The notes beneath the pieces are model-generated. The model was not told where the DNA came from. It saw only the letters and a list, made by a program, of their open reading frames with translations, and did not search any database. From Phycomyces nitens (lineage: Eukaryota; Mucoromycota; Mucoromycetes; Mucorales; Phycomycetaceae): a stretch of 64,000 bases of DNA. Positions within the stretch are counted from its first letter, which is position 1, and each line of letters begins with the position of its first letter. The stretch covers positions 7,874,001 through 7,938,000 of the forward strand of contig JAHRBC010000001.1 in assembly GCA_022702545.1 (NCBI GenBank), read 5' to 3'. Shown here piece by piece: positions 9,962-60,774 of this stretch. The translations under genes and the position numbers were made by a program.

Positions 9962-10718
9962 CACATGACGCGTGTTGAGTTTGGTTGTGTAGCATAAACT
10001 GGTCAAGAAGGTTTACAGACAGTTAAAGGCTAGTTGATTTCACTCGGGACAATCAACGGACAGAAATCGGTATAAGAACAGACAGAAAAACGGACAGCAA
10101 CGGACCAAAAATATGAACAATGGACAATGGAACCAACAGTGAGACAGAGATCTTATAACTTTAATGGAAAACAGCCTTGTATTTCACTCAGGACAATACA
10201 AGCTTGAATTGGGTTCAAAAGAAAATAATCGGAAAACTGAATGAATTTTTATTGATAGAGATATTGCTCTTCTTTTATACAAAACTATTGAATAATTCTT
10301 CTTACTAATTATGTTATTCAAATGTCATTCCAATTGTAGCTAAAGATAAAAGAGATTATATGAACAAATCAGGAAAGGTATCAATGAACAAGAAGTATAA
10401 AATATGGGGGGTAAGCTGGAAAGAATTATTGAAGTGTAAACAATAGAATGAGTAAAGGTAAAAATGTCAGGGTAAACACTGGGAAAACGGTCCTGAAGTA
10501 CAATGATAAGAAGTAACCTTTTAACCTATGCAAAACTGGAGTGATTTTGTATCTCAGAAAGTTTTTCATATTCAGGTTAAAGATAAAGCTTTACTCTATC
10601 TTATTGGCTTAGACACAATAGACATATGAATATCAATTTGTAAGATTATAAAGTTGTTGAGAATAAAGTAAATGTAACACTTGTTTCCTTATTATCTTAA
10701 TATTCAAAAGCATACAAT

Positions 10719-13700
10719 ATGTCTTCTATTACTCAACTTCGCAACGAGGTCTGTTATTGCACTAAATGCAATGGTAACGCCCAAGGTTACAGTCTGGTAA
10801 CAAAGAGAACCTCTCAGCGTCATAATAAGAGAGCAAGAATTGACGAACTTGAAAGAATTGTGATGGGTATGATGATTTTGGTATTGTTTTTTGGCCCTTG
10901 TATAATAACACGGTTTTTTATTAAACACAGAAAGACAAAGAGAAATGGTGGAGATTGATATTGAACGTAAGGAATATTTATTTGAAGAGCAGCAGATAGT
11001 AACAAGCTATTGTATTCTATATGTAGCTATCACAACCCATCAATCCAGTTCTATGGAAAGACAGAATGATTTTTCCCACTCACCCGTTGTGGAATCTGAG
11101 CTGATGCTGGATGGCGATGATTCAGCTGCCAATGAGGTGAATGGCAATGACAGCAACAATGAAGAGGAGAGCAATGCCAAAGACAGTGATGGTGACGACG
11201 TCGAGGAGATTGAAGTCGAGGATCTTAGCAGTGAAGGCGAGTGTTGAATAAAGAAAAAAGAACCTGAAAAAATTGAGTGTTAATAATTATCATTTTAAAA
11301 TAGACCCCTTTTCCTCCCCCGAGATGCCAGAGAATCCAGTGCACAGGTCCATTGCCATATTCGTGGTCCTGTTTGCATCCCGATACGTGGTCAACAAGGG
11401 TGCTGTTGTCTTGATCGAGTTCATCAACGAGCTCTTGAAGATCTACGAGCAGGATTTCCAATTGCCCTCTAGCCTTCCTGGTCTCCAAAAGATGACGGGT
11501 TTCTCAGCCTTGACCAAAGGAATAAAGAAATCTGTTGTGTGCCAGGATTGCCACAAGGTGTACGAGGAAGCTGGGTCTGTTCCTGAGTTCTGTAACTCAT
11601 CCAAGGTTGGTTCCCGCTCTTCCTGTGGGTGCAAGTTGATGAAGGCGTCCTCTTCTGGTACTTTGGTTCCAAGACGCCAATTCCACTATCAGTCCGTCAA
11701 GCAGGCGTTGAGTGTCCTTTTCCTCCGCCCGGATTTTGAGGCCAATATCCGCCATTGGAACAAAGAGCTTAAGGTCATGGACACCATGTGCGATGTGTAC
11801 GATGGTGCCATGTGGAAGGACCTGAAGGATAAGGATGGTGTCTCCTTTGTCGCTGACCCACGTTCATTGATGCTGACATTGAACATCGATTGGTTTCAGC
11901 CATTCGATGGGGTGACTTATTCCTGTGGAGCAATCTACTTGGCAATAAACAATCTTCCTAGGGCTGAGCGGTTCAAGCCCGAGAATATCATCCTTGTTGG
12001 CCTGATGCCTGGGCCAAAGGAGCCAAAATCAGACGAGATAAACAGCTACCTGGAGCCGCTGGTCAATGACCTGAACCAGCTGTACGTTGGTGTTTCCATT
12101 CCAACGTTTGAGTGCCCTTCTTCTGTGGTTGTCCGTGCTGCCTTGATGATGGTTGCCTGCGACATCCCTGCTGCCAGGAAGACTAGTGGCTTCACAGCCC
12201 ATAACAGCACTCGGGCATGCTATAAGTGCAGTCGCAGTTTCTCCCATCTGGAAGGCACGAGCCATGTGGACTTTCGTGGGTTCGAGTTTGTCAAGTGGAG
12301 GCTTGCCAATGGTGAAGAAAACCGGGTGCATGCTGAGGAGTGGAAGAGTGCAAGTACGCCCTCAGAAAGGCACCAGCTGGAGGTCGAAAATGGTGTTCGA
12401 TGGTCGCAGCTGCACCACCTTGGATACTTTGATCTAGTACGTGGAACGATCATTGATCCCATGCACAACCTATTCCTGGGTACGGCCAAGAGGATGGTTG
12501 AGACATGGACCGCCAGTGGTCTGATCACAGACCGGGATCTTTGTCAGATGCAAAAGGTGGCAGAGACAATGGTGTTGCCTGTGGGATATACCATGTTGAA
12601 GACGAAGATCGGAAAGGGGTTTCCCCGAATGAAAGCCGACGAGTGGAAGTCCTGGGTGTTGATTTACTCTCCTGTTCTGCTGCGGCCTGTTCTTTCTGGA
12701 ACAAAGTTCAAGAATTGGATCAGCTTTGTTGATGCCTGCCGTCTCCTCACCAAGCCTACCATCACTTTTGACGAACTTGATGAGGCCCATAGTCACCTGG
12801 AGAAGTTCGGTCGGGAGTGTGAACAACAATACCCTAGTACCATCCTCACCTGCAACATGCACCTACACCTCCATCTTCGCGACACTGTTCGTGATTTTGG
12901 ACCAGTGTATGGTTATTGGCTCTTTGGGTTCGAGCGATATAATGGGTTGTTGAAGAATGTTGATACAAACAGGAGAGATGGGTTTGAATCAACATACATA
13001 AAAAGTTTTACTGAAAATATGTATAAGGGTGATCTTGTGCAAAGACTTACATGTCAGAGCCAAGTCCCCTTCAAAGTACTATTGAAAAACTCACCTCCTT
13101 GTCCAATACTTTTATAGTAGCCCCAGCCCCAGCACCAGCACCTCAACGCCGTTTCCGTCTTGACGCATTCCTGCAAGCCTCGTTGGATGTCAGTCTTACG
13201 ATTAAGGGTAACGAAGCTCTCCCTCCGTCAGCATTACCTTTACCAACAGCAACAGCAACAACACAGATGGGTGATATCGACTATCCCCATCTCCTAGAAT
13301 ATTACAAGAGAGCATATGACAATGAGCACCTTGTTGACTACCTCCATGCATCTTCATCACCATTCTTTGTCAATGACCGAATCACAAAGATCAAGGCCAT
13401 TGATCTTCTTGGTCAGACATACAAGGGCAAAGGTGGATCTGGCAGTCGCGGGTCATATATCCAAGCTCTTTTTCTGGATTTCGAGGGTAGAAAGACAAAC
13501 GCGTACACAGGAGAAATCCAATACCTGTTCGCCCACAACTTCGTTCCTCCTCCCAGCCCCTCCAACAGCCGCCCTCATTTCCACCACAAGCAACATGTGT
13601 TTGCATTCGTCCACTGGCTTGTTCCAGATCCTGACAATCTCAGACCAGTTGAGCAAGTTGACGTCTGCCTCCCTGGTTTTGTGCCAAACACGTTCGACAG

Positions 13701-13845
13701 CATCTTGCCAGTGCACAGGATTCTCTTGGAAGTGGCTACGGCCGAATTAAAAATTGAAAACAACGCAAGGATGCTGGTCATTCCACTGCCAAAAAATATA
13801 TGCATAAATACAAATAAAACTTTTCTCTCTCTCTCTCCCTTTTAA
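10719..13845 (+). pseudogene. tnp2-type CACTA transposase of E1, one frameshift
   Basis: Four exons are inferred: 10719-10866, 10931-10966, 11027-11236 and 11304-13845. Exons 1 and 2 (148 and 36 nt) match E2 and E5 exactly in length. Exon 1 encodes a small C-x-C-x2-C...RH motif (CYCTKC, then TSQRHNKRAR), a likely zinc/DNA-binding head. Exon 3 encodes an acidic linker. Exon 4 holds the tnp2-like core: VCQDCHKVY zinc pair, LNIDWFQPF and ACDIPAARK with candidate catalytic Asp residues, CYKCSRSF, IIDPMHNLFLGT. A one-base shift near 13050 moves the C-terminal domain (KGNEALPPSALP to RMLVIPLP) into another frame. The intron after exon 3 appears to use a GC donor (GAAG|GCGAGT) where E2 and E5 have GT. 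Confidence 0.85.
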
Positions 13846-13941
13846 AGAAGCAAAAACAAAACAAAGCCAAGTAAAATATACATATAGTCCAAATAGCGCA
13901 TATGTGAAACAGGGTGAAAATTAAGAGAAAAAGAAAACGTT

Positions 13942-15128
13942 TTATTGTCTCAGTGACCATTGAGGAAGGGAGGAAGAAAGCCCCTCAGGGACTGCTAAAT
14001 CTGCAACGCGGCCAAATACTCTTGGGAGCATTTGGCGCACGTTGACACCCAAGCCAAGGAGCGAGTACGAGTCCAACAACTCAATCAACTGATTGAACTA
14101 ATATACATTCATTAGAATATTATTTTATGATTCAAAAGCAATAAAAAAATTTATTTAAATAATATGTTACCTCATCGCTCCTCCAGCCTGGGCGTACTGT
14201 GCGGATCATCCGCCGGCCAGGAACTCCAGGAAACTCATCCTCAGACTCACCCTCAGACATTGCTGCCTTTTGGATGAGTGCTGAGCAATCATTGCCTATC
14301 GCATTGTCAATTGCATCCTTGTTGGAGAGGTATGCCATTCGACGGCGATGGAAATGCTAATCAAACATATGTTTAATATTGTTTTTCAATCTCAAGTCTT
14401 TTAGATGCTATACTATTACATACATCAGCTTCCCGGCCGGCTTTTCTGGCACGAGCATTTGCGGCTACCCGTGCCTCAGGAGACGCCCTCTCCTGGCGAC
14501 GCCTTCCGCAAAAGTTCCGGTAGACACTGTCCCGAAGATCCCTTTGGCGCAAGCCAGTGTTGATGAACGTTGGGCCCAGGTAGGCAAGGAGTTCAAGAAC
14601 CAACTCCTTGTTGGGAGATTCATTGAAATGAACCTCCGTTCTCCACCTGGGCCTGTTGTTGTTGGCTTGCACCATAGCCGGGTTGTTTGACCTGAAATTG
14701 GGCCTCCACAGATAGTCTCGTATATGTCGCTATTAAATTTTTATAAGCCAATGAATTGGTAAGCTATTGAGAATATTAATACTTACAAACGCTTCTGTGG
14801 CGGCACCAGGGTTATACTCCACCACAGCCGGGATGATGGGAGCTGGGCCAGTGGCAGGGATGGCAACAGGACCAGGAGCAGGGCCAACAATGGTGAATAG
14901 CTCCTCACCAAAGGCAGAAGCAAGCTCGGCGGCAGGAACTGCACTGTTGTTGGCAGCCACCAACTCAGCCAAACTGTCAATAGCCTCGACAGTACTGGCG
15001 TTGCCTTCGATGCTGGTGCCAATGCGAGAATCTACCCTGACAAGGATGTTTTGAATATCCCGCAAGGTCTCCAACAATTGGAGTTGCTCATCGGTTGAGC
15101 GAGAAGTGGGAGTGGATCTTGGTGCCAT
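13942..15128 (-). CDS. Accessory protein of E1 (329 aa, four exons)
   Basis: The exons are 15128-14787, 14729-14424, 14356-14171 and 14097-13942 (342, 306, 186 and 156 nt), all joined in phase 0 by GT-AG introns. The N-terminal exon has a helical, Gln/Leu-rich start followed by an Ala/Pro-rich stretch. Exon 2 holds a conserved block (RPRWRTEVHFN.SPNKEL, then LRQRDLRDSVYRNF and a basic segment). Exon 3 ends with an acidic MSEGESEDE run and the motif RPGWRSDE. Exon 4 contains FNQLIELLDSYS and LPRVFGRVADLAVP. I do not recognise the family. By its place beside the transposase it is a candidate TNPA-like DNA-binding partner (inference). It lies 96 bp from, and tail to tail with, the transposase. 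Confidence 0.8.
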
Positions 15129-15360
15129 AGTCTATAGAATATCATATGTTTTCAAAATTAGCTTTATATTCTCTTTATAAATTATAGACTCTACTCTTTA
15201 CATACAAAATACTTGGTTTGCGAGTGCAGGAGGGTCGATTCAATTGTAAATAGATGGTCTTTATATACACAGATGAGTTTAATAAACAGATTCCTAATTA
15301 CCCTTTGTATACTCTGTATAAATTAATAAAAAAATAATTTTGGATCTCTGCTTGAAATTA

Positions 15361-16207
15361 AATATCATTTCTTTCTTTCTTTTTGTTCTATCTTCTTATC
15401 TCTGTTGTTTTATCTCTACGTGGGTTTCTAATAAGACATTCTTTATACTAACAAATTAATGGCTTCTTTATAAATGTATACTCATCCCAATACATTCTCT
15501 CTACATTGCCCATCTAGACTAATCATGGTCAGTTACATGTGCCGGTGCCATCTTGCAAGTTATTCTGATTGTCTCTTTCTATCCTGTAGACCTCTTCCAC
15601 TTGTACAGCCTATTATATGGTGCCATCATCAGTGCCAGGGTAAATAAAATCTTTTCGTGTCCAATTTCTTTTTTTCTCAACGTTTGTTATTCTACAATAG
15701 GCCGCCGCCATCACTGTCTACCCCATCTGCCTCCTTCATCATCTACAACTGGTTATCATAATGGTAATGCCGTTTCTTGGTCTTTGTGCTTTTCCCTAAT
15801 ATTATTCTGGCTATTTACTAATACTTTTCTATATTCTTAAAAAGTTATTGTTGGCTGCCATATACCATCCCTCTACTATAATCGCCAACTCTGTTTTTGG
15901 TATGTAAATCGATTTTTCTATCACTCAATTCACCCATATTAATTTATTTTATCCCATCTCTAGTCAATCTAATCATACAAGATGCCATGCCACACAACTC
16001 TGCCCCTCTTTGCCCATTCTTATCCAATCCTTGCAATGTAAGTATAATATCCCTTGCATCTTGAATAGCACCCGCACTTTTGAATATATGTCACTAATAT
16101 AACTTTTATTATATCAGAATACTACTGCAACCACCCAAATTGCTGCCGGACCCTATTTTCAGGTATTGTTCAGTAGAGAAGTATCCGATCCAAGTAATAT
16201 CAAATAG
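15361..16207 (+). CDS. Third micro-exon locus of E1
   Basis: It is divergent from the accessory gene, starting about 230 bp from its ATG. A hydrophobic stretch (IFLSLLFYLY, about 15380-15420) is followed by short exons. One encodes DLFHLYSLLYGAIISA (about 15590-15639), another ends GYHN (about 15697-15759), and another ends at the AAT|GTAAGT donor (about 16039). The last exon is 16118-16207 and ends in TAG. Matching pieces are found in E0 and E2. The donor after the hydrophobic exon reads AATAAG where E2 has GGTAAG, so this copy may be decayed. Function unknown. Confidence 0.45.
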
Positions 16208-16731
16208 GCTGGTAGAAGCGGCAAGGATAGACAGTAATAGTATTAGAGCTTGTGTATAGAACCATTCTATTCTTTCCAATAAACACAAATATAAACCATA
16301 AACCTTTTAAGTACGGGGTATAAAATGATGGAAAGAGTAATTATTGCTTGATTATACAATAATGAGTTTCAAAGAGTGGTCAATACTGGCAGTTTGAATG
16401 GGTAAACAATAATAAACCCTCACTATTAGCGTATGAAAAACAACAATAAGATCGCCCTTTCAAGATGTAAACACAATACCTGTACACCAAAAACATAATG
16501 TCGGATGTAACAATTGAGTATATCAAGTCAGTTAAGCATGTCAAAAATGCTAACAAACCTTTGTTCCGTTCACTGTCACAACTTTTACCATGTTTATTTC
16601 GAGTCTTACAACCTGATAGGAACCTAGGTTCTCCTATCTGTCATATCTGTGTTTTACCATAGAAAATTCGCGACTTTTCACATATTTATTTACAGTTTTA
16701 CACATGATCTACTTTTACCGTTTTCCCAGTG
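16208..16731. other. Right terminal non-coding part of E1
   Basis: No ORF is seen. It includes a stretch (AAGTACGGGGTATAAAA, 16309) that is also present in E0 at about 1201, and ends in the inverted repeat at 16717-16731. Confidence 0.6.
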
Positions 16732-17830: not shown

Positions 17831-20271
17831 GCATCTCCTTATTTTCTATCGTCTGATGTTTAAATTTGGAGGAATAACAGGAACTTGTGACAGCTTTTAC
17901 TTTTACAAATTCTTGTAGTGTGATCTATTTACATTTTTTAAATACTTTTTGTTACAAAACCTATTATGAAAAAGATTGATTTTTATTAACGTTGAGTATT
18001 TATATTTTGGAAATGAAGAGAGTTTTCATTCTTCAAGTCATCAACATGCTTTAATGCATCAAACAGTAACCTGTCTACCATCTCTAACTTAGAAATATCC
18101 ACACCTGGAATGCTCCTCAATCTCTCCAAATCTTCTCTCTGATGATACAATGTTGTTGCATTAGCCATAATACTTTGGATTACTAAGCTAGGATCTTGCA
18201 ATCCATTTCTTTGCTCAACATTGTTATCTACTAAAGCTTCATTTCTGACACTCTGGGCTGATTGTTGCAACTGCATGTGTGCATGGTCTTGCTGCTCATG
18301 ATATACCAAATTTGCTTTACTGTATCGCTTGAGCAGGTACATATGGTTACATGACAGTTGGCGATGGTGGAAACTGGGGCAAGAACACTTTTGGATCAAC
18401 CCATGTTCAATCATGACAGTATACCATTGATTTTCTGTTGAAAAAGACTTGATTTGCCACTCACCATGAGAGTCATCCATACTATTACTAATCTCACCCA
18501 AAAGGTTAATGATCATAGAAGGGAGTATGTCATCTTAGATTTGGGAGGCAGCAAAGGAGTTTCTTGAAAGCTCATTTTCAACAGGACCCATTCTTCTATT
18601 GCTGAAATTAAGTCTTTCAACCTCTTGTTCATAGTAGAACTCAACATCGTTGGTTAGGATAAAGACAAGACGGTCCAATCTTCTGATTCTTGCGCGATTG
18701 AAATAAATGACTTTCAGTTGGTTGTGCCATGATTCAATGTAGTTGTTTGTCAAGTATCTTTGGTGGTGCTGCTGAACAAAAGGACGTCCCCATCTTCTCA
18801 ATATATTTTTGCTTCCTGTCCATTTTCTCTCGAAATATCTTAGAAATTCAGGTTGATCTTGGATCATTCTTTTAAACTCTCCAATTTTTGTTATGAAGAT
18901 TGCTTCATTTGACTCAACAAGAATACTTTTCAAACTGTTCTTCAGGCTTTGCTTATACTCTGCCAGCTGTTGCGTTGTAAATGATCCATCTAGCTTGACT
19001 TTACTGTCAAGGTTATGTTGCCAAGCACAAAGGACATGAAATTCACAGTAGTAAATCGATGTTTGTGGTAATGCAGAGGTGATTGCATTGGCTTCGGCAA
19101 TACAACAGTCAATCGTGATTGCCAATGGATTGAAGGAGTTGGTTTGGCGAAGATATACAAGCCATTGGTTGATGGGACCAACACTTTGATCATTTGTGAT
19201 CATAAATGCAACAGGATAACCTTTTCCGGTTTCAGGGTGTTTGGTAACCAAGGAGTACATAACCTCTGTACTTCTACAGGAAACTCCATGGGTGGCATCC
19301 AAGCAAAATGATTGAGATAAACTCATGATTTGTACTTGTGTTGGCGACTGGAATCCAAATGCAAAGAGATCTTGGTTGTTTGAGTATGCCAAGAGATTTC
19401 CAATAAAGATTGAATAATTCTGGGATGCCAGCTTTTTGTTCAACCAGATTGACAAAGATGTCTTCTCATTTGAGTTAAACATATATAACAATGTTTCCAT
19501 CTATATTTTGTATCATATTATTAAATTCAATCTCTTTTTCTTTACATCACTGCCAACAAACCTTCTTCATTCTATTGTAAATCTCTTCATAATTGGGCTT
19601 TCTGATACCCACACCCCAGTTTTCAATTTGTCTAAGAGTAGATATCCTTGTGTTTCTACAGCTGCTTCCACTTCTCAGCTGATCCTCAATGATCTTGATT
19701 GCCTCAGAGGGCAAAGGCAAAGTTCTGATTTCCTGGCGCTCTCCAGGAACATGATTGATATGATCTTTTGTCATGCAAAAGGTAACAATTGAGGTGCCAT
19801 TATACTGCTTGATTTTCAAAGCAGCAGTACACCCACATCTCTTTGAGTCCTTTTGTGCAAGATGGATTTGATGCTTAGGCTGATATTTTCCAGAACGATG
19901 ACATTGTCTAGTCTCTCCAAAGACTAAACTTTGATCCTGAAGTTTTCTATTTACTGTCCACTTTGTTGAGCAGAGTGCATTCATGCGGCCAAGGCACTGC
20001 TCCCATTCACTGGCTTTTACTGAGATTGTTATATTCAAAGGAAGCATTTTAATGCCTTCAATTGATGAGTTGATCAAAGCATTTTTGATGTTCGAAATGT
20101 TATAGATAATAGTGTTGTTGGACATTTTTGAATATTTTTAATAAAGAATTTGAGAAAGAAAAAAATAAAAAGAAATCGAGAGAAAATAACTAGTAACTCA
20201 GCCAAGCCTTCACTGAAAAAGCCACTATTCCTCCAAATTTAAACATCAGACGATAGAAAATAAGGAGATGC
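17831..20271 (-). mobile_element. Mutator-like element (MULE), complete, 2441 bp
   Basis: Terminal inverted repeats are identical over 46 bp (starting GCATCTCCTTATTTTC). They are flanked by an 8-bp direct duplication TCCTCGCC at 17823-17830 and 20272-20279. The size, the long inverted repeats, the 8-bp duplication and the encoded MULE transposase agree. Confidence 0.93.
17986..20125 (-). pseudogene. MULE transposase with WRKY/FLYWCH-like and SWIM zinc fingers, one nonsense codon
   Basis: The exons are 20125-19562 and 19500-17986, joined in phase 0 by a 61-nt GTTTGT...TATAG intron. The N-terminal part (residues about 60-130) is a C/H-rich DNA-binding region of the WRKY-GCM1/FLYWCH type (CSTKW, CHRSGKYQ, CGCTAALK, then H.NH). 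The MULE core follows: DATHGV at about residue 255, TIDCC at about 318, CEFH at about 340, and NNYIESWHNQLK containing the probable catalytic Glu. The C-terminus carries a SWIM finger (CSCPSFHHRQLSCNH). An in-frame TAA at 18535-18537 separates the core from the SWIM domain. Apart from that codon the gene looks intact, so inactivation is recent, or the stop is suppressed. Confidence 0.88.
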
Positions 20272-20820: not shown

Positions 20821-23800
20821 CACTACGGTGGAAAAAACAGTAGCTAACTACCGTTTTGGTAGCATTACTACCATTTTTTCCCACCAAAAAAAACGGTAGT
20901 AAAGACTCTGTATAAGGCGATTTTGGTAGCTGTTACCGTTTTTTTAGTGCGAAAAAAAGGGTAGTTATGAGGCAGGAATAGGCACAGCTACCATTTTTTT
21001 TATCCAACCAAAATCGTTTCTTTATATACTACAGCCTCTCTTTTATATTACTTTATATACTAGCACCCATTCTTTTTTTACTGCCATTTATTTGAAATAA
21101 TGGTTTATTTTTTATTATAATTTCGATTTATTTCAAATAATATTAAAATATATATAATAATAATATAGAAACATACCAAAAGCAAATACTATTTAATATT
21201 ATAAAACGTATATGGTACAAACCTTTTACTCAATCTATACACGATGCCAACAACATGTTGTTATGACTTGGAAGGCCTTTGGTCTTTATCAATTGCTATA
21301 AAGATATCGTGGTCAGAGAATGAAACGATCAAATAAACTGAGCATATTGTTTTGGATAGCATACCAGTATATATTGTGCTTGTTAATCGGTATACCAAGC
21401 ATCTCTTGAATTAATGCCACTATATGAAACGTACAGATGTAAATACTAGATGCAGTAGAAGGAGAATAGAGAATGCGTAATATGATTAATTAAAGAGTGT
21501 AAACATATTATAATATTCTTACCATAGAAAATATATTGCTGTAAAGTCAGCTCATAAGATTTAAAACTAATTTGAATATAATGGTAGTTGGCAGAATAAG
21601 TACATCATTAAGAAAACAATATGCATATTCTACAGAGATTTCCAGGTGGGGAGGTGGGGAACAACAAACTTTAGTGTAATATAGCTGTAAAAAATTTTCA
21701 CCTTTTTTTAGTGTCTGAAAAATTATGAGATGAGTGTTTCATTCCTTGATTAAAGATAGCAGAGCTGAAGATGTGGTATACAAGATTCCAATTGGATGTT
21801 TATGTCATTGACAACCTTACATAAGGGAGGGTCATTTAGTTTTACTTCAAAAAAGTAGAGCAAAGAAAAGAAAAGAAATATAAACTAACCTTGGCGTAAT
21901 ACAGCTATAAAAAATTCATTTTTTTTGGTGCTTGAAAAAGGGCAAGATGTGTGTTTCATTCCTAGATTAAAAACAACAGAGCTGAAGATGTGGTATACAA
22001 GATGCCAATCGGGCATTTATTAAGGTGGCAATCTTACGTGATGGAGAGTTATTCGATTTTATTTCAAAGGAGAGGACCAAAGCAAAGATAAAACAGCTAA
22101 AGGAAAAGAGGAAAAGAAAAAGTGTGCTAAAACATATACTAAAAATATGAGAGAACCAATAAGAGCAGCCTAAAGAATATTAAAGACTTAGTCTGTTTCT
22201 CTTAGATGAAGGCTCATTGCTCATTCCTAGTGGTGTAAACCTATATCAAACAGTAGAAATATTATATTAATATTAAATTGAGAATAGATGAGCAACAAAA
22301 AAGCTCTAACTTATAGTACATCTGTCATGATTGGGGATTCAGCCTTGTCATCCGTTTGAAATACCTCATCTTCCGAAAGAAAAGAACTGCTTGCTCTTTC
22401 CTGCTATAACATAATAAAAATATTGTATTAATTATAATGTATATTCAAATGTTTGTTAATTAATAAACTTGCCTGGCTGTTCTCTGCTATTTTTCTCTTA
22501 CGAGTCTGGTTTGCACTCTTAAAGGTGTCTTGAAGAAGATTCTTGGCACACCACATTCTTTTACACTTGTAAATGTGGAGTGCTATTGTTCTAGCTGTGC
22601 CTCACTGGCCACAATCATTGATGACAGGTACGTTGATTTTGTCATCATTGACCAAGAAGTGTCTTTGCTGCTATTGCTATTATTAGTCAAATAATCTCTT
22701 ACCTACCCATGGAAAAAGTAATTAGAGTATACTCCAAGCTTATCACATCAAACTTGAAGGGCGGTAGAAATGCCAGTTTGCTTGTTGAGCGCTTTGCTGT
22801 TCATAGCTTTGTCAGTTCAGCAAACAGCTCTCAGAATTATCCTAGTACAAGTCAGCCGTCCACATATAATGAAGCAAGTTTCTTAGATCTTCCAGATGGT
22901 GTAAGTGCTGCCCAGCTATGGGAGCCATTCAACTGACATGCCAGCTTGAATGATGATGACTTGGAAGGTGTCAGCAGCCCTGTTGTCAAGAATACTTTGG
23001 CAAAGTACTATGTGTGAAACAGTATTATGAACAATATTGAACTTGATGACCCAATAATTGTTGTTGCTTCTTGTCTTTGGAAAAATTCAACTGTACATTC
23101 TTCATGTATGTACTGAAGAATAAAAAATGAGACCAGACGTGGCAATCATCATGTGATGTTCACCTGTCCATACAGAAAGTGAGTATTGGTATTAGTCAAA
23201 ATACAAAATAGAGATCACTCGCATTTTTTATATTTTTATCTAGCCGTCGCAATATAACTATTCAAAGCTGGTTTGTTGGCACCGTGGAATTTTATTTTGA
23301 GCATAAAGAGGTTGATGACACACCGCACTTTCTGGCATTCATTGAAGTGATGAAAGAGCATGGTACAGCAGCCCATGACTCATCTGTGCCAATCGTAATA
23401 CGGCAGTCACACAGCTCAACTGGACAAACAACCCAGCCAAAATATGCTGTTAATGTGGATGACATTCAGCATCAAGTTGGGCTCATCCAGTACCCTCCGA
23501 GTAGTAATCAGTTCTTTATCATTGCACCATATTACGTGTTTAATGACAATCTGCGTGTGACCATGGGGAATCTTGCCACTTTATAAAAATTTTCTTTTTC
23601 TTTTTTCTTTTCTTATAAATATCAATACCAAATAAAATAAAATAAAATGGCTAATAATGTCAAAAACAAAAAAATTGTTTCAAAAAAATGGTAGCATAAC
23701 TACCGTTTTGTTCACACAGGAGAAAAATTATTTTTCTCAAAAATGTGCAACATCTTTAACACCAAATAAAATGCTCATTTCAATAAACAACGTTGCCTAA

Positions 23801-25255: not shown

Positions 25256-25259
25256 ATGA

Positions 25260-26451: not shown

Positions 26452-26460
26452 ACGACGTGA

Positions 26461-39490: not shown

Positions 39491-39501
39491 ATACTCTTTC
39501 T

Positions 39502-47552: not shown

Positions 47553-48156
47553 AATAAAGATTATATGAGCAAGAGGTATTATATTTGGCTCTTTTTTATA
47601 TGAATCATATTTCAGAGCAAGACGATATATATTATTAATCCTACCATCAAACACACCATTTATTCATCATCGTCTTTTGATATCTGGGCTTTGAATCAAT
47701 CTCCCTTAATATTTATAAGCATTACAAACCCAATCTCTGTTAAATTCAAAAAAAATTGGTGGATTACTAATGGTGCCGAAATTATTAATTATCCTTGAAT
47801 ATTATTTTTTTATTTTAAAATATTGGTCATTATTATTATGTACACATCAATTCATCTTAAATATATTGAATGTTTTGTCTATAAAATCAATAAAAAAGCA
47901 AGAATCGTAAAAATTGATATAGTTTATAAAAATGAAAAAAATAGTACCAATTTTATTTATTTGTTTTGCAAAGTCATTTAAAATGTGTGCTATTTTGCGT
48001 CAAATCTGCGATTTAGAGCTCATATATGAAATAAAATGCGAAATTAGGTCTCATCATTAAAAAATCATCAAAATGATGGAGTTAGAATTCATTTTTAAAA
48101 ATTCGTAATAATTCAAAATCTCTAATTCTGGCTAATACAACCCTTCTTTTGCAGTG
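47553..48156. other. Transposase-side terminal non-coding part of E3
   Basis: This promoter-bearing terminal region is AT-rich. The transposase promoter should lie just right of 47552, but no clear TATA matching the E2/E5 motif was recognised. Confidence 0.45.
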
Positions 48157-50001: not shown

Positions 50002-53000
50002 CACTACGGCGGAAAAAACGGTAGCTAACTACCGTTTTGGTAGCATTACTACCGTTTTTTCCCACCAAAAAAAACGGTAGTAAAGACTCTGTATAAGGCG
50101 ATTTTGGTAGCTGTTACCGTTTTTTTAGTGCGAAAAAAAAGGGTAGTTATGAGGCAGGAATAGGCACAGCTACCGTTTTTTTTATCCAACCAAAATCGTT
50201 TCTTTATATACTATAGCCTCTCTTTTATATTACTTTATATACTAGCACCCATTCTTTTTTTACTGCCATTTATTTGAAATAATAGTTTATTTTTTATTAT
50301 AATTTCGATTTATTTCAAATAATATTAAAATATATATAATAATAATATAGAAACATACCAAAAGCAAATACTATTTAATATTATAAAACGTATATGGTAC
50401 AAACCTTTTACTCAATCTATACACGATGCCAACAACATGTTGTTATAACTTGGATGGCCTTTGGTCTTCACCGATTGCTATAAAAATATTGTGGTCAGAG
50501 AATGAAGCAATCAAATAAACCGAGCTTATTATTTTGGATAGCATACCAGTATACGTTGTGCTTGTTAATCGGTATACCAAGCATCTCTTGAATTAATGCC
50601 ACTATATGAAACATACAGATGTAAATACTAGATGCAGTAGAAGGAGAATAGAGAATGCGCAATATGATTAATTAAAGAGTGTAAACATATTATAATATTC
50701 TTACCATAGAAAATATATTGCTGTAAAGTCAGCTCATAAGATTTAAAACTAATTCGAATATAATGGTAGTTGGCAGAATGAGTACATCATTAAGAAAACA
50801 ATATGCATATTCTACAGAGATTCCCAGGTGGGGAGGTGGGGAACAACAAACTTTAGTGTAATATAGCTGTAAAAAATTTTCACCTTTTTTTAGTGTCTGA
50901 AAAATTATGAGATGAGTGTTTCATTCCTTGATTAAAGATAGCAGACTTGAAGATGTAGTATACAAGATTCCAATCGGATGTTTATGTCATTGACAACCTT
51001 ACATAAGGGAGGGTCATTTAGTTTTACTTCAAAAAAGTAGAGCAAAGAAAAGAAAAGAAATATAAACTAACCTCGGCGTAATACAGCTATAAAAAAATTT
51101 CATTTTTTTTGGTGCTTGAAAAAGGGCGAGATGTGTGTTTCATTCCTAGATTAAAAACAACAGAGCTGAAGATGTGGTATACAAGATGCCAATCGGGCAT
51201 TTATTAAGGTGGCAATCTTACGTGATGGAGAGTTATTCGATTTTATTTCAAAGGAGAGGACCAAAGCAAAGATAAAACAGCTAAAGGAAAAGAGGAAAAG
51301 AAAAAGTGCACTAAAACATATACTAAAAATATGAGAGAACCAATAAGAGCAGCCTAAAGAATATTAAAGACTTAGTCTGTTTCTCTTAGATGAAGGCTCA
51401 TTGCTCATTCCTAGTGGTGTAAACCTATATCAAACAGTAGAAATATTATATTAATATTAAATTGAGAATAGATGAGCAACAAAAAAGCTTTAACTTATAG
51501 TACATCTGTCATGATTGGGGATTCAGCCTCATCATCTATTTGAAATACCTCATCTTCCAAAAGAAAAGAACTGCTTGCTCTTTCCTGCTATAACATAATA
51601 AAAATATTGTATTAATTATAATGTATATTCAAATGTTTGTTAATTAATAAACTTGCCTGGCTGTTCTCTGCTATTTTTCTCTTACGAGTCTGGTTTGCAC
51701 TCTTAAAGGTGTCTTGAAGAAGATTCTTGGCACACCACATTCTTTTGCACTTGTAAATGTGGAGTGCTATTGTCCTAGCCGTGCCTCACTGGCCACAATC
51801 ATTGATGACAGGTACGTTGATTTTGTCATCATTGACCAAGAAGTGTCTTTGCTGCCGTTGCTATTATTAGTCAAATAATTTCTTACCTACCCATGGAAAA
51901 AGTAATTAGAGTATACTCCAAGCTTATCACATCAAACTTGAAGGGCAGTAGAAATGCCAGTTTGCTTGTTGAGCGCTTTGCTGTTCATAGCTTTGTCAGT
52001 TCAGCAAACAGCTCTCAGAATTATCCTAGTACAAGTCAGTTGTCCACATATAATGAAGCAAGTTTCTTAGATCTTCCAGATGGTGTAAGTGCTGCCCAGC
52101 TATGGGAGCCATTCAACTGACATGCCAGCTTGAATGATGATGACTTGGAAGGTGTCAGCAGCCCTGTTGTCAAGAATACTTTGGCAAAGCACTATGTGCG
52201 AAACAGTGGTATGAACAGTATTGAACTTGATGACCCGACAATTGTTGTTGCTTCTCGTCTTTGGAAAAATTCAACCGTACATTCTTCATGTATGTACCAA
52301 AGAATAAAAAACAAGACCAGACGTGGCAATCATCATGTGATGTTCACCTGTCCATACAGAAAGTGAGTATTGGTATTAGTCAAAATACAAAATAGAGATC
52401 ACTCACATTTTTTATATTTTTATCTAGCCATCGCAATATAACTATTCAAAGCTGGTTTGTTGGCACTGTGGAATTTTATTTTGAGCATAAAGAGGTTGAT
52501 AGCACACCGCACTTTCTGGCATTCGTTGAAGTGATGAAAGAGCATGGTACAGCAGCCCATGACTCATCTGTGCCAATCGTAATACGGCGGTCACACAGCT
52601 CAACTGGACAAACAACCCAGCCAAAATATGCTGTTAATGTAGATGACATTCAGCATCAAGTTGGGCTCATCCAGTACCCTCCGAGTAGTAATCAGTTCTT
52701 TATCATTGCATCATATTACGTGTTTAATGACAATCTGCGTGTGACCATGGGGAATCTTGCCACTTTATAAAAATTTTCTTTTTCTTTTTTCTTTCCTTAT
52801 AAATATCAATACCAAATAAAATAAAATAAAATGGCTAATAATGTCAAAAACAAAAAAATTGTTTCAAAAAAACGGTAGCATAACTACTGTTTTGTTCACA
52901 CAGGCGAAAAATTATTTTTCTCAAAAATGCGCAACATCTTTAACACCAAATAAAATGCTCATTTCAATAAACAAGGTTGTCTAAAAACTTACGAGCCCTT

Positions 53001-53180
53001 TCTATGGTACTACAACTACCTCATTGCCTGATGAAAAGACATTCCATGCAACTTTTATGATTCGAGATCGATGACATTACCTTTCAACTACAATCTGCGG
53101 AGATAAAGTGCTCTAAAATCATAAAAAACGGTAGTTATGCTACCGTTTTTGGCACAGATACCAGTCCTTCTGCCGTAGTG
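50002..53180 (+). mobile_element. CACTAC-ended element C (3179 bp)
   Basis: The ends are CACTACGGCGGAAAAAACGG and ...CCTTCTGCCGTAGTG. It is nearly identical to A and B. The left flank is LINE ORF1 (GAAGAAT) and the right flank is the terminus of an LTR (TTGCTGGAAC), with no target duplication, so the locus has been rearranged. It has one copy of the 159-bp unit and no gene in 50002-51490. Confidence 0.85.
51893..52770 (+). pseudogene. C-terminal CACTA transposase remnant (element C)
   Basis: It is colinear with 8125-9002 of element A. Apart from the shared TGA (52118-52120) the frame is open across both exons (51893-52362 and 52428-52770). Together with A it represents the best-preserved version. 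Confidence 0.55.
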
Positions 53181-53210
53181 TTGCTGGAACATTCTACAAC
53201 ACTTGTGTCA
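53181..53210 (-). mobile_element. Terminal 30 bp of an LTR
   Basis: It ends CTACAACACTTGTGTCA, like the other array LTRs. The rest was lost, with CACTAC element C now at its edge. Confidence 0.6.
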
Positions 53211-53214
53211 AAAA

Positions 53215-53956
53215 TGACGCGTGTTGAGTTTGGTTGTGTAGCGTAAACTGGTCAAGAAGGTTTACGGACAGTTAAAGGCTAGTTGATTTCACTCGGGACA
53301 ATCAACGGACAGAAATCGGGATAAGAACGGACAGAAAAACGGACAGCAACAGACAGAAAATACAAACAACGGACAATGGAACCAACAGTGAGACAGAGAT
53401 CTTATAACTTTAACAGAAAACAGCCTTGTATTTCACTCAGGACAATACAAGCTCGAATTAGGTTCAAAAGAAAATAATCGGAAAACTGAATAAATTTTTA
53501 TTGATAGAGATATTGCTCTTCTTTTATACAAAACTATTGAATAGTTCTTCTTACTAATTATGTTATTCAAATGTCATTCCAATCGTAGCTAAAGATAAAA
53601 GAGATTATATGAACAAATCCGGAAAAGTGTCAATGAACAAGAAGTATAAAATATGGGGGGTAAGCTGGAAAGAATTATTGAAGTGTGAACAATGGAATGG
53701 GTAAAGGTAAAAATGTCAGGGTAAATCAAAGTGAGGGGAAATAATCTTTAAAGATAAAAAGGGAAAAAAGAATTGAGACAATATTCTGGACAAGAAATCC
53801 GGAAATTTGGGATAACTTCAGGTCCCGCTGAAGTTCTGACAATGGTAATGACGGTTAGTTGTGATGTAGCACTCTTTCTTGGTGGGGCCCTTAGTGACAT
53901 CATGGAATTTCTGCTAGTTTTGTAGTGCAGCTGGGAAATCTACAACACCTGTGTCA
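53215..53956 (-). mobile_element. Solo LTR type Z copy 2 (742 bp)
   Basis: It is complete from TGACGCGTGTTGAG to ACACCTGTGTCA and flanked by aaaa on both sides (53211-53214, 53957-53960), which could be a target duplication. It provides the empty site of E1 (GGGTAAATCAAAG). Confidence 0.88.
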
Positions 53957-54248
53957 AAAATGATGCGTGATGTGTGTATACGGTTGTGTATAGTGACAAA
54001 CGACGGCAAATAATAAAACGATAATAAAGATAAAGAAAATGACTAACGAAACTCAACAGTATATTCCCAAAATGTAACCGGGCAAAATATCACTGCTCTT
54101 CAGAGATCAAAAAGTACAAATAAAATAAAATAGAACTGGTATTAAACCCAACAAAAGATATGTTTTATTGATTGAAAACTGAATGTCTTTTATAGACATT
54201 CAGAATCAAAAAAGAATAACCAAAAATAATAAAATAACTGGATGGAAT

Positions 54249-54949
54249 CACTGGAAAAAGTATACGATTTTATGGTGGAGAAATATCTGTAGTATTAAAG
54301 TACCATCATCGATTTATTGTTATTTCAATCTATATTTCTCCACCATACAAATATGAATGATACTATAGGGAATGACGCCTGGTCTATCAGAGAAATAGGT
54401 CTTTAGTTCCGCTTGAAAAACCTTTGATACCCCCCAACTTTTCTGTTATTAAAGAGGTCTAGTTTATTTTATATTTCGTGTCGAGTAAGCCTATTATTTA
54501 TTGTATTTTGTGCCATATAAAGCTAATCGCAATATCGCGATTTACAATCTATTCATATCCTTTACTTTTAACCTCAGTAACTCATCTCTTTAGGCTGAAA
54601 AGCAAAGGGAAATAGTGTCTTTAGACTGAAAATCAAAGGGAAATAATGTCTTTAGACTGAAAAGCAAAGGGAAATAATGTCTTTTAGACTGAAAAGCACC
54701 GTATCATACGTTTACATACAAGCCTCATTTGTTGATTTTTAAAAAATAAATTGTTTTTTATTTATTTTTTATTTATTTAATATATATATTTCTAGATGAA
54801 TGCTCTAATCATATAATAATAATATATATGCTATTTCTAGAGTATTGTTTGATATTTTGCATCTAGCAAGACCAACAAGTTCCTACCTGATAGATATTGG
54901 GTACTGTCTTGGAGAAGAATGGTGCTATTTAATAGTAATAGGAGCAAAG
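54249..54949. other. Left terminal part of E4
   Basis: It is AT-rich and has a 31-bp tandem repeat (54588-54698). It may hold unrecognised 3' exons of the third locus. Confidence 0.45.
54588..54698. repeat. 31-bp tandem repeat, about 3.6 units
   Basis: The unit CTTTAGACTGAAAAGCAAAG plus GGAAATAATGT is repeated at 54588, 54619, 54650 and, partially, 54681. On the minus strand each unit reads as a pyrimidine tract ending CTTTTCAG, like a splice acceptor. Confidence 0.8.
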
Positions 54950-55590
54950 ATTAATTAAATAATCGTAGTGGATCAAATTATTTGCTGTTGTACTTACAAT
55001 GTTGATATCGTGAGTAGATGGACTACTTGATAGATTCATGAGAATATCTCAGCATATTAGCTGCCAGTTGAGATTGTCTAAGAATTGTAAAGTTATTAGT
55101 ATTCTAGATATTCATATATACTATATTATCAGCGGTTTTCTTACCTGTGTGATTGTTTGTTCAGGCATGCGGATGAGATTCTTAATATATCTAATAGAGA
55201 ATAGAACATAGTTATATATGTATAAGTAAAGAGATATATATAATTTGTAATAATATAATAGCTTACCATGATGTTTGATTACAAGATTGAGTGACATGCA
55301 AAGCCGTGATGACTGGAGGCATCAAGTCATTAGTAAAGAGAAGCTTTGAGCAAATATTATTTTATGTTATTAAACCATGTAAAATGACCAAAGAGAAGAA
55401 GCTTGTTGATGATCTGTAAAGATAATGGCAAAATTATTAAGTAATTACATAAAATAATAAGAATAAAATAATTACCAGTATGTGTATAAGAGCAAGAGGC
55501 AAAAGAGAAAGAACAAAAAATAATTTGAGTTCCAAGGTGGTTTACCCCTAAAAAAAGTGCGGTCTCTAAAATCAATAATCCCAAAAACAT
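54950..55590 (-). CDS. Third micro-exon locus of E4 (5' part)
   Basis: It begins ATG at 55590 with a hydrophobic exon (MFLGLLILETALFLGV onward) ending at CATACTG|GTAATT (55477). Candidate exons follow, ending at ATG|GTAAGC (about 55266), CACACAG|GTAAGA (about 55144) and AACATT|GTAAGT (about 55000). It is divergent from the accessory gene (215 bp between start codons), the same position as in E1-E3. The later part is unresolved. Function unknown. Confidence 0.42.
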
Positions 55591-55804
55591 AATATAATCG
55601 TCATTTTCATTTTACAGTTAGACGCTTTATTTAATCAATAAAAGACACTAATTAGTTTTAAGCAAGTCATTGTAAAATATGATTATATATTGTAGAATAA
55701 ACATCAGTAACAGTTCATTATACTTCTTTACTTGTAAGAAACATTATAATATCATAAAGATAAAATATTAATAATTGTCATTTAAACATTTATTCATATA
55801 GAAA

Positions 55805-57044
55805 ATGAACAACTTTGACATCTCCAAAATCTCTACCAGTAGTCCTATCTATGCATCTATTATGCGTAGTGCTATGGCTAATGTCCAGAACAGTGAACTT
55901 ACCACTGCATCTACTTCGGCCACTGTAACAGCAGAAGAGACATCCAATTACCAGGATGATAATGAAATCCGTAGCTTGCTAAACTCGGCAAATATCAAGA
56001 TGGATTCTCTTGAAAATCAAAACAAGACAATTGCAAGTGAAGTGGGTGATTGCAAGACGTCAATTTCGCAGCTTGAGAAGGTCATTGATAGACTTGTCAC
56101 TGGCCAAATCAGCATCAAGGATATTTTGTCTGGTGGAAATACTCCTGCAAGAACGATTGCAGTGGCCAGTTTGGTACCTCGGGGTGAGGAACCCTATGTT
56201 GTTGGAAAGAGATATCCAAAGATCTCAGTAAGTCTTGACTAGACATAAAATCAATAAGAAGAGTATCTAAAACCAATTTATAGAAATTAATCAATGGCTA
56301 TATCAAGCACCCAAACTTCACCAGTGACAACCCTGTCAAGATAATGGAGAATGATGCCAAGCAAGGGTGGTCCTTGACTAGCTACTACAACAGTAGCTAT
56401 AACAATGCACTGGCCATAAGGCTGATCACCTACTTGGGAAGACAAGAGGCAGGAAAGGCGATCCCTTTGAATGATCTTGCCAAAATGGTAAAAAACCATT
56501 TTGTCAACCAGGTGCGCCAGCGCCAGCGAACCCCAGAGGCTGCAGACAGAAAAAGACTTGCATGCAGAAGACGACAGCGAACTGTTACGGTAAGTTTATA
56601 TTTTAATCAATATAAAACTGTTATTTTCTTACACACTTAATATACAGATTCTTCGTCGCCGAATCAAGGCATACAACAAGTACAGAGACCAGATTGACAG
56701 AGAGATGGGCAGAAAAAATTGCGACCATGCCCTCCAAAAGGAAACCATGTCTGAAGATGAGACTGATGGAGAAGATAAGGTAAAGGCCTTTCGCCCTAGC
56801 TGGAGAAGTGACGAGGTAATTATTTTAGCATAGTTTTTCATATTAAAATTCTATATCTTTTATTAATACACCTTATTATATTCAATAGCTCCAGACTTTT
56901 ATAGATCTTGTTGATGATTTTGCTTCCCAGTCACTAAAGAAAAAGGGAAGCTCCATTTTGAAACGCGTCCGAGTAGTTCGTCAAAAGGATGTACCAAAGG
57001 ATTTAGCAGTCCCATTGGCCGCGTGGACAATAAATAATGAATAA
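55805..57044 (+). CDS. Accessory protein of E4 (350 aa, four exons)
   Basis: The exons are 55805-56227, 56284-56589, 56648-56815 and 56889-57044 (423, 306, 168 and 156 nt), all phase 0 and free of stops. Exon 1 is Ser/Thr-rich with a predicted coiled coil (IRSLLNSANIKMDSLENQNK and beyond). Exon 2 carries the conserved block (LAIRLITYLGRQ, LNDLAKMVKNHFVNQVRQRQR, a basic end). Exon 3 has MSEDETDGED and RPSWRSDE. Exon 4 has LQTFIDLVDDF and KDLAVPLAAW. Acidic and basic segments and the pairing with a CACTA transposase suggest a TNPA-like DNA-binding partner (inference). It ends 85 bp from the convergent transposase. Confidence 0.82.
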
Positions 57045-57129
57045 ACTATCTATTTTATGTTTTATATTTTTTGGCTATCTTTTGCTGCAGATACTTTTGT
57101 GAGATAAGGATAGGTAAAGATATTTATTT

Positions 57130-60100
57130 TTAAGCATATATTTTTCTAAGAACAGGAGCAACAATCATCTTAACATTTCCTGTCTCAGTTGTATGCTCAC
57201 CAATGGCAACCGACAGCAAGATTCGGTGCACTGGCAAGATATTTTGATAATCCCCTCGGGCAAAGGCAAACTCATTCAACTCTATCCCTTCATCACTTCT
57301 TGTGTTCAGACCAGATGACCTATACCATTTGACATAAGCAAAGGTATGATTGTCAGGTTGAAGAGTCTGGGGATTCACAAGCGAGTTGACAAACAAATAC
57401 TGAATCTGACCAGTAAAGGCACTTATACCACGGTCATTGTTCTCTTGGAAGATTGCCTGTATATATGACCCGGCGAACTGCACCATTGCTCCCTTTGTAT
57501 ATCTGGCCAAGCAAGTTGATCGATGGGAACTTCTGGATCATATTGTTGACAAAGACATTGCCGAACGAAGCTTGCTGGTAACTGCGAAGAGAATCATCGT
57601 CATAGGAGTCTCTGTAGAACTCAAGAAGATGCTCATACTCTTCTTCTACCATTCGTTCATATTGCCCTAGGGAAAGTGGGAAGGCCGACGAAGGAAGAGG
57701 TTCATTGCCTTTGATGTTGACAGTACTGAACTGCGCGGAATCAAGAAAGACTTTTAGGTCAAACCTAGGAGAAGCAACTTGGAAATATGGGGCGGTGGTG
57801 ACAGTGGTGGTTGCAGTGGACGCATGGACAATTGGAGCAGGAGGAGGAGTAAACTCGACGAGTTCAGAAAGCAATGCAATATACGATGCATTTCCAATTA
57901 CGGCCATCATTCTACAAGCAATATCAACCTTGCAAGAGTCCTCAAGATATTTTCGCATGAACGTGGCCTCAAAGCCGTCTCTCTTGTTTGTCGTGTAATT
58001 CTTCAGTACACCATTGTACCTCTCGAAGCTGAAAAGCCAATAGCCGTATACTGGCCCAAAGTTGACGATCGTCTCATGAAGATGCAGATGTAGATGCATG
58101 TTAGGTGAGATAAAATCTGCACCATACAAGTTCTGACATCCTTGTCCAAACAACTCCAAACAGAAATGGGCTTCGGCTAACTCGTCTTCTGATATGCTGG
58201 GCTTGGACAAGTATCGGCAGGCGTTGACGAAGCACATCCAATTGTCAAGATTGTCCCTTGGCAACCGGTCTTTCAAGAGGACAGGCGAGTATACCAGGCA
58301 CCAGGACTTCCATTCGTCGGCCTTCATGAACGGGAAGTCCTTGCCAATCTTCTTCTTGAGGGTGCTCATATCTGGGGGAAGGACCATATTGTCAGCCTCT
58401 TGTTGCATATCGGCCAAGTCTCTGTTGGTGATCAGACCAGCTGATCTCCACTTCTCCATCACTCGCTTCGAGGTTCCCAAGAAGAGGTTATGCATCGGGT
58501 CAATGATGGTGCACTCGACTACATTAAAGTACTCAAGATTGTGGAGTTCCGACCAGCGGACTCCATTCTCCTTTTCCATCCTCTTTTGGTCTGCCTCACT
58601 CGATGCACGCTTCCAGGCCAGGGCATCACGACGATTATCTGCTTCGGTTCGAGGCACCCACTCGGAAAAGACAAAACCAGAATAATCAACACCGCCATTC
58701 CCTGGGAGATGGGAGAACTGGCGATTGCACTTGTGGCAGGCATTGGTGCTCATGTGGGACGTGAATCCGCATGTCTTGCGAGCAGCAGGAATGTCGCAGG
58801 CAACAAGGAAAAGAGCAGCACGGACAAGAGCACCAGAAGGACAGCGCACAGTAGGGATCACCACACCCACATACAAGGATTGGAGCTCGGCAACAAGAGG
58901 ACGGAGGTAGTGATTGATCTCACTGGTCTTGGCTTCTTTTGGGCCAGGCATGAGGCCAACAAGAATGGTGTTCTCCTTCTTGTATCGTTCGTCTCGTGGC
59001 AAGTTGTTTATGGACATGTAGATTGCCCCACAAGAGTAAGTAACCCCATCAAAAGGTTGAAACCAATCGATGTTTAGAGTCAACATGATTGATCGTTCAT
59101 GAGCCACGAATTGCTGACCATTGCTGTCTTCCAGATTGCTCCACTTGGCACCATCATAGACATCAAACATCATGCCTGCAACTTGCTGTCTATGTCTCCA
59201 GTGATTGATACTGCTTTCGAATCCAGGGCGACAGAAGAGAACGGACAAGGCAGAAATCAAGGAGTTGTACATATACACCTTCTTTGGCAGTGCTACGTTT
59301 CTCGAAGGCTTGAAGAGATCGGCGCCACATATACCGCCAGAAAGTCTTCTGAAGTTGCAGCACTGGGGAACACCGTCAAACTCCATGTATGTCTTGTGGC
59401 ACTCGCCACACACCACGTAGCGCTGGACACCTTTGCAGACTTGGTTGAATCCTGTCATGGAGGAAAGACCACTCAAACTCAATGGCAGACGGAATGATTC
59501 GCCAAAGTGCGCCAAAACCTCATTGAGGAACTTGATCAAAATTGCTCCTCCAGAGTTTACAACATATTTTGATATGAAAAAGGTGGCAAAGGCAGCAATG
59601 AAAGCATGGGTGTTATCCGCTGGCATGTTGGAGGATGAGAATTGTTCTATTTGGGTTTTGTATATTAATATATGATATCTATGTTTTTCTTGTACTTTTA
59701 CTAACCTTCAAATTCTTCAGCTTCATATTCAGAGCCTTCCATTGTATCAAGCTCAATGATATCCTCATCTTCATTTTCAGCTATAAACAAAAATTGGTAA
59801 CAGACACAGGTAAGTTTTCCATTGTTTTTTTTTGGAGCAAAAAGTAAATATTCAAGTGGCTGCAATTTATTATGCAATTTGAATAAAATTTTATACTTAC
59901 ATTCAACATGAGCATCAACATCATGGACCTCGGCATCAATCTCCATGTTATTGTCATTCTCCATCTGAATTGCTTCAGCTGACAATGCTATATTTTTTAA
60001 AATGTTTAATTACACTTTGAAATGCGAACAAATTATATATATATTACTTACAAGAAGCTGTCTGCATAAAATGTCTGACAAGATCGTTATCAGCATGTCT

Positions 60101-60196
60101 TCGTGCTGTTTGGGCAGATACTGCTACAAATCCTTGGACATCGAGAGAGCAGACTGAGCACTGGCATTGAACTTCGTTATTGAAAGTGTTGTACAT
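57130..60196 (-). pseudogene. tnp2-type CACTA transposase of E4, one frameshift
   Basis: The exons are 60196-60052, 59987-59901, 59780-59706 and 59646-57130, with phase 1 at each junction. Exon 1 encodes a C-x-C-x2-C...H head (CQCSVC, TARRHADND). Exons 2-3 are acidic. Exon 4 has VCGECHKTY, LNIDWFQPF, ACDIPAARK, CHKCNRQF, IIDPMHNLFLGT and the C-terminal domain (GQIQYLFVNS, TFAYVKWY, ILPVHRILL). One extra base near 57485, within LLGQIYKGSNGAV, shifts the last 120 residues into another frame. Otherwise the gene (about 940 codons) looks intact. Confidence 0.87.
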
Positions 60197-60774
60197 ATTG
60201 TTTAAAGAGGTTATAGGATTGATATAAAGAAAAGTGGTTCAGGAACATAGTTTATTTTGCTTGTTTTATAGTTCAGGAACCATTTACATTACGTACATGC
60301 CGTTATTATAAATATTAACAAATTCACTTAATGATTGTATTTGGAAATTGACATTATTTCATTTTAAATATATGACTATATACCAAGTAGTTGTTTTGTA
60401 TATACATCTTTTAATAATATGATATCATGTCTATTTCTCCAACTCTTCATTAACCAAAGTACATCGTCATTAAAATATACTTTAACTAAATATATATTTC
60501 AAGTAGTCTCAGCTGCGCACTCTTGCCCATATTTGATAATTTATTTTCAACATCCCCAAGAATATTAATTTCGCGACCTTCAAAAGACAGAGAAAATATC
60601 GTAGTTGAATAATCAACAAAAATAAAGACATATTCTAATGTCCATCCAATAGAACTACCAAATATTCTTAACGCCGTCTAAAGTGAGCAATCAAGAAAAG
60701 GGCTAATCCAAGACCTATACTCCCCTCGTTTCAATTGATGTATTCAGAGTTGAAATCGGGTATTTTTTGCAGTG
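60197..60774. other. Transposase-side terminal non-coding part of E4
   Basis: AT-rich; upstream region of the transposase. No ORF and no clear repeat. It ends in the CAGTG terminus. Confidence 0.5.

Follow-up and report, generated by a model that had tools for sequence, protein, structure and literature searches.

The question raised by a 64,000-nucleotide stretch of the Phycomyces nitens genome (positions 7874001-7938000 of contig C1, referred to here as the window) is what a series of transposons with CACTG ends carry besides a transposase, and whether this additional material keeps to one element family or passes between several. Four elements in the window, E1 to E4, each contain a transposase gene (tnp) and a convergent accessory gene (acc). 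Two of them, E1 and E2, also share a third locus, the cassette, located between acc and the 3' end and divergent from acc. Based on comparisons across the genome (48,981,352 bases in 11 contigs), families are named here after E1, E3 and E4, or as B (the family of E2), C, D and F. It is somewhat more probable than its opposite that these are coexisting CACTA/EnSpm families with a tnp2 transposase, an acc gene under selection, and a spliced-like cassette that has been exchanged as a family-independent helper.

E1 to E4 are CACTA/EnSpm-type elements with a tnp2 transposase. Within E1, E3 and E4, the two ends of the element have one, zero and four mismatches, respectively, in their first 16 nt, and the 3-bp duplications are exact (Table 1). 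An empty-site paralogue of each is present within the window (53723-53725 for E1, 26001-26003 for E3, and 39966-39969 for E4), the flank alignments overlapping there by 3, 3, and 4 bp. These are the ends and duplications described in an earlier note on this DNA, made from the sequence alone. For E2, the note had reported CACTG ends and an imperfect TAC duplication; the ends are present and the duplication is not, but the related full copy L041 (6349 bp) has TAT on both sides. The tnp2/Transposase_21 domain (PF02992) was identified in all four cores, which score 54.7-72.3 bits (the cut-off is 28.6). Both this domain and the CAC..GTG ends with 3-bp duplication that define CACTA/EnSpm are therefore found here, E2 itself being without a matching duplication. 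The Plavaka transposase domain matched in E4 alone and below its cut-off (13.7 bits against 26.3). The tnp motifs DWFQPF, ACDIPAARK, CxxC, NMHLHxHL, and FERYNG are kept in E1 to E4 and fit the CMC group as described in the available part of PMC12730594; catalytic residues can be putatively assigned within them by analogy. The ratio of non-synonymous to synonymous substitution rates (dN/dS) for tnp is 0.08-0.16 among E1, B, C, and F, silent sites being saturated in pairs that involve E3 or E4, for which no ratio is given. That the transposase acts on the CACTG ends and leaves the 3-bp duplication is shown by its domain, together with the ends, the duplications, and the empty sites.

Copies outside the window support this assignment. 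The genome searches scored limited numbers of candidates, therefore the copy counts given here are lower bounds, with the exception of the motif count below; alignments took subsets of the fetched copies, and ends and duplications outside the window were examined for families E1, B, C, E3, and E4, leaving out D and F. Twenty more copies of the E1 family were compared; they were picked through matches to acc and so are uninformative on how often acc is lost. Thirteen can be aligned across the whole of E1 (two of these in two pieces), and identity to E1 is 98.5-99.5 %, except in L038 and L039 (94-97 %). Both ends were located in 12 copies of the family, eight of which have identical 3-bp flanks. 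Exact duplications were found outside the window in at least one copy of each of the five families, including L041, which has an empty-site paralogue in the window at 7729-7731; L042 of family C (6502 bp, TAA/TAA, perfect 32-bp ends), with an empty-site paralogue in the window at 40181-40183; L069 of the E3 family (7066 bp, TTA/TTA); and L070 of the E4 family (6558 bp, ATA/ATA). The E3 tnp has at least 53 matches in the genome, including those of the window. The earlier note named, as support for its view, one set of three genes found inside CACTG ends across unrelated parts of the genome. This holds for tnp and acc; the third locus is undetected in E3 and E4.

The convergent order of tnp and acc is as previously described in all four elements, and acc is also found in B, C, and F, making it a second element-encoded protein under selection. 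Its exon 2 is 48, 28, and 18 % identical to that of E1 in E2, E4, and E3, respectively. For acc, dN/dS could be computed only where silent sites are unsaturated. Among E1, B, C, and F the ratio for exon 2 is 0.10-0.25, which shows that the acc protein is maintained by purifying selection; a lack of such selection, named in the earlier note as grounds to discard the gene, was not observed. The within-family pair E2-B gives 1.08 for exon 2, based on few changes, and the E2 copy has a stop within its exon 1 model, plus 281 extra bases. No Pfam domain was above its cut-off in the three acc models searched, the sole weak match being to Maelstrom (E value 0.033, 14.3 bits against 22), and the E1 protein had no match among PDB sequences. 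The predicted structure of the four exon-2 peptides from the window is helical, with a mean predicted local distance difference test score (pLDDT) of 69; Foldseek returned three matches to the exon-2 model, with E values up to 10 and none at or below 0.001. The simplest inference, by analogy, is that acc is most likely TNPA/ORF2-like and assists the transposase on the ends of the element in the manner of the plant products, in agreement with the TNPA analogue considered in the earlier note. Putative binding to subterminal repeats, and a requirement for acc in transposition, are plausible on the same grounds.

The cassette, roughly 0.9 kb long or longer, is common to E1, B, C, and F, and the cassette copies D and L061 also belong to it. 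Its nhmmer profile matches E1, E2, and E0, a partial element at the start of the window, and a search of E3 and E4 with this profile gave nothing significant. The third locus had been claimed for all four elements; it is homologous in E1 and E2. Donor and acceptor sites are at equal places across the cassette families, with pyrimidine tracts, followed by an AATAAA-type terminal motif. In a count made by eye on the alignment, E1 and B have the same letter at 30 of 32 splice-site positions, against a background of about 65 % (P 1.7e-4). With up to two mismatches, the closing poly(A)-like motif is present at 406 places in the genome, and its reversed control at none. Twenty of these 406 places were examined, all on C1 and none previously attributed to a family; every one of these copies aligns to the cassette, L045 and L052 over part of it only. 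It would therefore appear that in E1, B/E2, C, F, D, and L061 the cassette consists of short exons, presumably spliced, closed by this motif.

E1 contains a single pair of exons a (49-50 nt) and b (59-66 nt). There are about two such pairs in C and D, four in E0, and six in F; in E0 and F the first pairs are degenerate. In C, D, E0, and F the pairs form tandem units of about 235-250 bp. Such units, together with the repeated subterminal binding motifs of plant CACTA elements (reported in the available part of PMC2613891), would be in keeping with a cis-acting DNA array, for example of binding sites for the transposase or acc, and no transcription unit. This is improbable in view of the conserved donors and acceptors, the pyrimidine tracts, and the terminal motif; likewise, the last 350 bp by the element end, where such sites would be expected, differ between E1 and C.

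In E3 and E4, donor- and acceptor-like sites are present in the same place as the cassette, without sequence similarity to it. The sense strand of the corresponding region in E3 contains four strong donors, a number reached in none of 200 shuffles (mean 0.85), and two of the four lie in a tandem unit some 113 nt long. There are two strong donors in E4 (reached in 14 of 200 shuffles), and the candidate 80-nt exon of E4 has stops in all three frames. E1, C, and F also have two strong donors each (reached in 47, 30, and 79 of 200 shuffles). As shuffles also reach the counts of E1, C, F, and E4, the number of donors is not in itself proof of splicing.

The histories of the cassette and the transposase conflict. 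At third positions of tnp, E1 differs from B by 0.375 and from C by 0.464, and the tnp tree joins E1 and B (0.951). Cassette differences from E1 are 0.413 (B) and 0.160 (C); the cassette tree joins E1 and D (0.886) and places B, on a long branch, next to F and L061 (0.745). Along the element, identity between E1 and C is 0.38-0.66 across acc, 0.84-0.93 in positions 5001-5800 of E1 (element coordinates), then 0.61 and 0.39, and the last 350 bp are not common to the two. These conflicting histories indicate exchange between families, for which recombination or gap repair between families would fit best as the mechanism. Little credence is given to the possibility that no exchange took place and that strong constraint over the entire block keeps the cassettes of E1, C, D, and F alike: it would account for the inferred introns of E1 and C being conserved as much as the exons, but the cassettes of E1 and B differ by 0.41 although their transposases are the closest pair. 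A cassette that has been passed between families would most likely be a family-independent helper, either as a spliced RNA or as a fast-changing small protein.

Whether the cassette encodes a protein was addressed from its exons. The earlier note considered the third locus a protein gene of many micro-exons in all four elements; as a fast-evolving gene of this kind, the cassette is a possible but doubtful candidate. Exons are no more alike than introns: identity is 0.88-0.95 in exons and 0.85-0.98 in introns for E1-C, and 0.53-0.70 and 0.54-0.72, respectively, for E1-B. Exon lengths vary between high-copy families: L061 and the F group have an exon 5 shorter by 1 nt, and in the F group exon 6 is longer by 5 or 15 nt. 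The a and b exons together sum to 108, 109, 113, or 116 nt, of which only 108 is a multiple of three. A plain repeat protein is doubtful on account of these sums; in family F, with an alternative splice choice, units of 52 codons remain in frame. Ratios of replacement to silent change are 0.47-0.89 for multi-exon readings and 0.53-1.85 for single-exon frames, and one B-group reading is interrupted by a stop in five of eight copies. In favour of a protein, one reading that keeps its frame through exons b and 5 has, in each of these exons, a lower ratio than the other two frames (0.67 and 0.53). Against it, the Fisher P for exons b and 5 is 0.10. Of three cassette readings tested, two gave P values of 0.10 and 0.69, and the third is described below. 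Coding scores from column shuffles were low (largest z score 2.02), and no reading frame of the cassette was found to be both open and conserved across families. By the earlier note's condition of purifying selection, the third locus is in doubt. A structured RNA was also considered, and none is claimed: alignment folding in eight windows on both strands gave z scores of -2.2 to +1.4. An Rfam search of 10477-60774 found only two tRNAs above the gathering score.

Several observations weigh against the reading of exchanged helper cassettes beside a selected acc. The exchange is based on few representatives per family. In acc, exons 3 and 4 have higher dN/dS than exon 2, 0.23-0.60 where computable among E1, B, C, and F. 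The splice-like signals of 31-113 nt in E3 and E4 may belong to a similar unit, which is not demonstrably that of E1 and E2. One E-group reading of the cassette gave P 0.015, uncorrected for the frames tried, and is stopped in D. In addition, and also in favour of a protein gene, none of 15 whole-region shuffles reaches the longest spliced open frame of E1, C, F, or D, and none of 60 local shuffles reaches that of E1 (169) or F (403). On the other side, 2 of 15 whole-region shuffles reach the observed frame in B, as do 9 of 60 local shuffles in C, 20 in D, and 19 in B; the acc control regions exceed all 60. The evidence on a conserved cassette protein thus points both ways, and such a protein would be neither established nor ruled against. 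The narrower proposal, that the cassette is a spliced, mostly non-coding helper RNA that is traded among rival families and acts in trans for any of them, for example by blunting host silencing, is speculative and rather unlikely to be correct as it stands.

The comparisons with known systems made here are based on the available parts of the cited sources. Among fungi, the mobile CACTA element CNIRT6 of Cryptococcus neoformans (about 7.5 kb) has terminal inverted repeats starting with CACTG and a CMC-group DDE transposase (PMC12810828), and resembles E1 to E4 in superfamily, ends, and transposase group. It differs in having one gene annotation of about 6.9 kb, and neither an acc-like gene nor a spliced cassette is mentioned in that part of the source. 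Plant CACTA/EnSpm elements (En/Spm) likewise have tnp2, a 3-bp duplication, and a second product, TNPA/ORF2, that aids excision, and an ancestral transposase gene of at least four exons has been proposed for them (PMC4158355, PMC2613891). Their ends are CACTA rather than CACTG, maize TNPA is an alternatively spliced product of a single gene, no known protein similar to acc was detected, and an exchanged third cassette is unmentioned for them in these parts. Rust EnSpm elements share CAC..GTG ends, 3-bp duplications, and the presence of extra genes (PMC12730594). PHISTA and other TET-carrying fungal transposons have added genes and show gene passage between transposon lineages (PMC12730594); their added gene is a TET/JBP dioxygenase, for which the acc models scanned had no Pfam match. 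SmTRC1 and the fungal TRC elements are Transposase_21 elements outside plants, with matches in Rhizopus oryzae, and have a fast-evolving second protein proposed to be TNPA-like; they differ in their CCC ends, 2-bp repeats, and production of the second protein through alternative splicing (PMC1636069). CACTG-ended fungal CACTA elements (PMC12810828) and two-gene CACTA elements (PMC4158355) are therefore already known, and the unusual part is the exchanged spliced cassette. A literature search, mostly of titles and abstract openings and so weak evidence of absence, gave no recognised description of the acc protein or of such a cassette.

Table 1. Elements in the window and their component features, in window coordinates.
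Feature	Position	Strand	Remarks
E0, family F third cassette	1-1276 (end approximate)	+	Extends upstream of window; about four tandem units
E1, full element	10477-16731	+	CACTG..CAGTG ends; AAA/AAA flanks
E1 tnp	10719-13845 (approximate)	+	Four conserved coding blocks up to and including core; short intron near 3' end; PF02992 72.3 bits
E1 acc	13942-15128	-	Exons 15128-14787, 14729-14424, 14356-14171, 14097-13942 (342, 306, 186, 156 nt); 329 residues; read by eye
E1 third cassette	15440-16384	+	Inferred exons 15590-15639, 15701-15763, 15845-15899, 15964-16037, from 16118; poly(A)-like motif 16263-16283
E2, family B element	31983-39018	+	CACTG ends; flanks ACG/TAC, duplication not matching
E2 tnp core	33147-35336	+	PF02992 68 bits
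E2 acc exon 2	36230-36535	-	306 nt
E2 third cassette	37564-38584	+	Split by 380-bp insertion; nhmmer matches 37564-37872, 38251-38584
E3, full element	40708-48156	-	CACTG..CAGTG ends; ATA/ATA flanks
E3 acc exon 2	43177-43443	+	267 nt
E3 tnp core	44418-46976	-	852 aa open frame; PF02992 54.7 bits
E4, full element	54249-60774	-	CACTG..CAGTG ends; AAT/AAT flanks
E4 acc exon 2	56284-56589	+	306 nt
E4 tnp core	57434-59707	-	PF02992 57.2 bits
E5, 5' part of E2-like element	62851-64000	+	Truncated by window end

E0, E5, and insertions inside E2 (35656-35936 and 37871-38250) and E3 (40882-41261, 380 bp) are additions to the earlier description. The 380-bp insertions of E2 and E3 are 98 % identical, in opposite orientations, and missing from the related L041 and L069; with an overlap of 5-6 bp at its ends, this is probably a small non-autonomous element. 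A reversed tnp in E0 was considered, and the reversed piece is taken to be a neighbour, based on the usual order in the related copy L065 (its 5' end lies outside the fetched part). Near the 3' end of E4, a 31-bp motif is present four times in tandem (54579-54698) and resembles CACTA subterminal repeats. A repeat family occupies 5534-10476, 20821-26463, 39428-40707, 50002-54248, and 60774-61315, its tested open frames being without a Pfam match. E1, E3, E4, L041, and L042 are all inside copies of this family, therefore the elements often insert in repeats. Elsewhere in the window, 26771-31121 contains frames of an element like a long interspersed nuclear element, with reverse transcriptase (PF00078) and endonuclease (PF14529), adjoined by a tRNA-Ser gene (31202-31285). 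Weak aspartyl-protease, Ty3-capsid, and, in one frame, MULE transposase matches at 1573-4559 and 18535-19500 are all below or near curated cut-offs. One FKBP domain has its closest PDB match in a chain named FPR4, a yeast protein, which, like the style of the introns, agrees with a fungal host. An inverted repeat of 309 bp (61738-62395), 99 % complementary and with a 40-bp spacer, shares part of its sequence with 31675-31981.

The accessory genes of fungal CACTG elements are little described in the sources consulted, and here recent families of many copies share a conserved partner protein, acc. If the reading of coexisting families with an exchanged cassette is true, the exchange of modules between them would point to a helper function that is separable from the transposase. 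If the cassette does act as an RNA, DNA transposons would share a helper RNA whose closing motif occurs about 400 times in a single genome.

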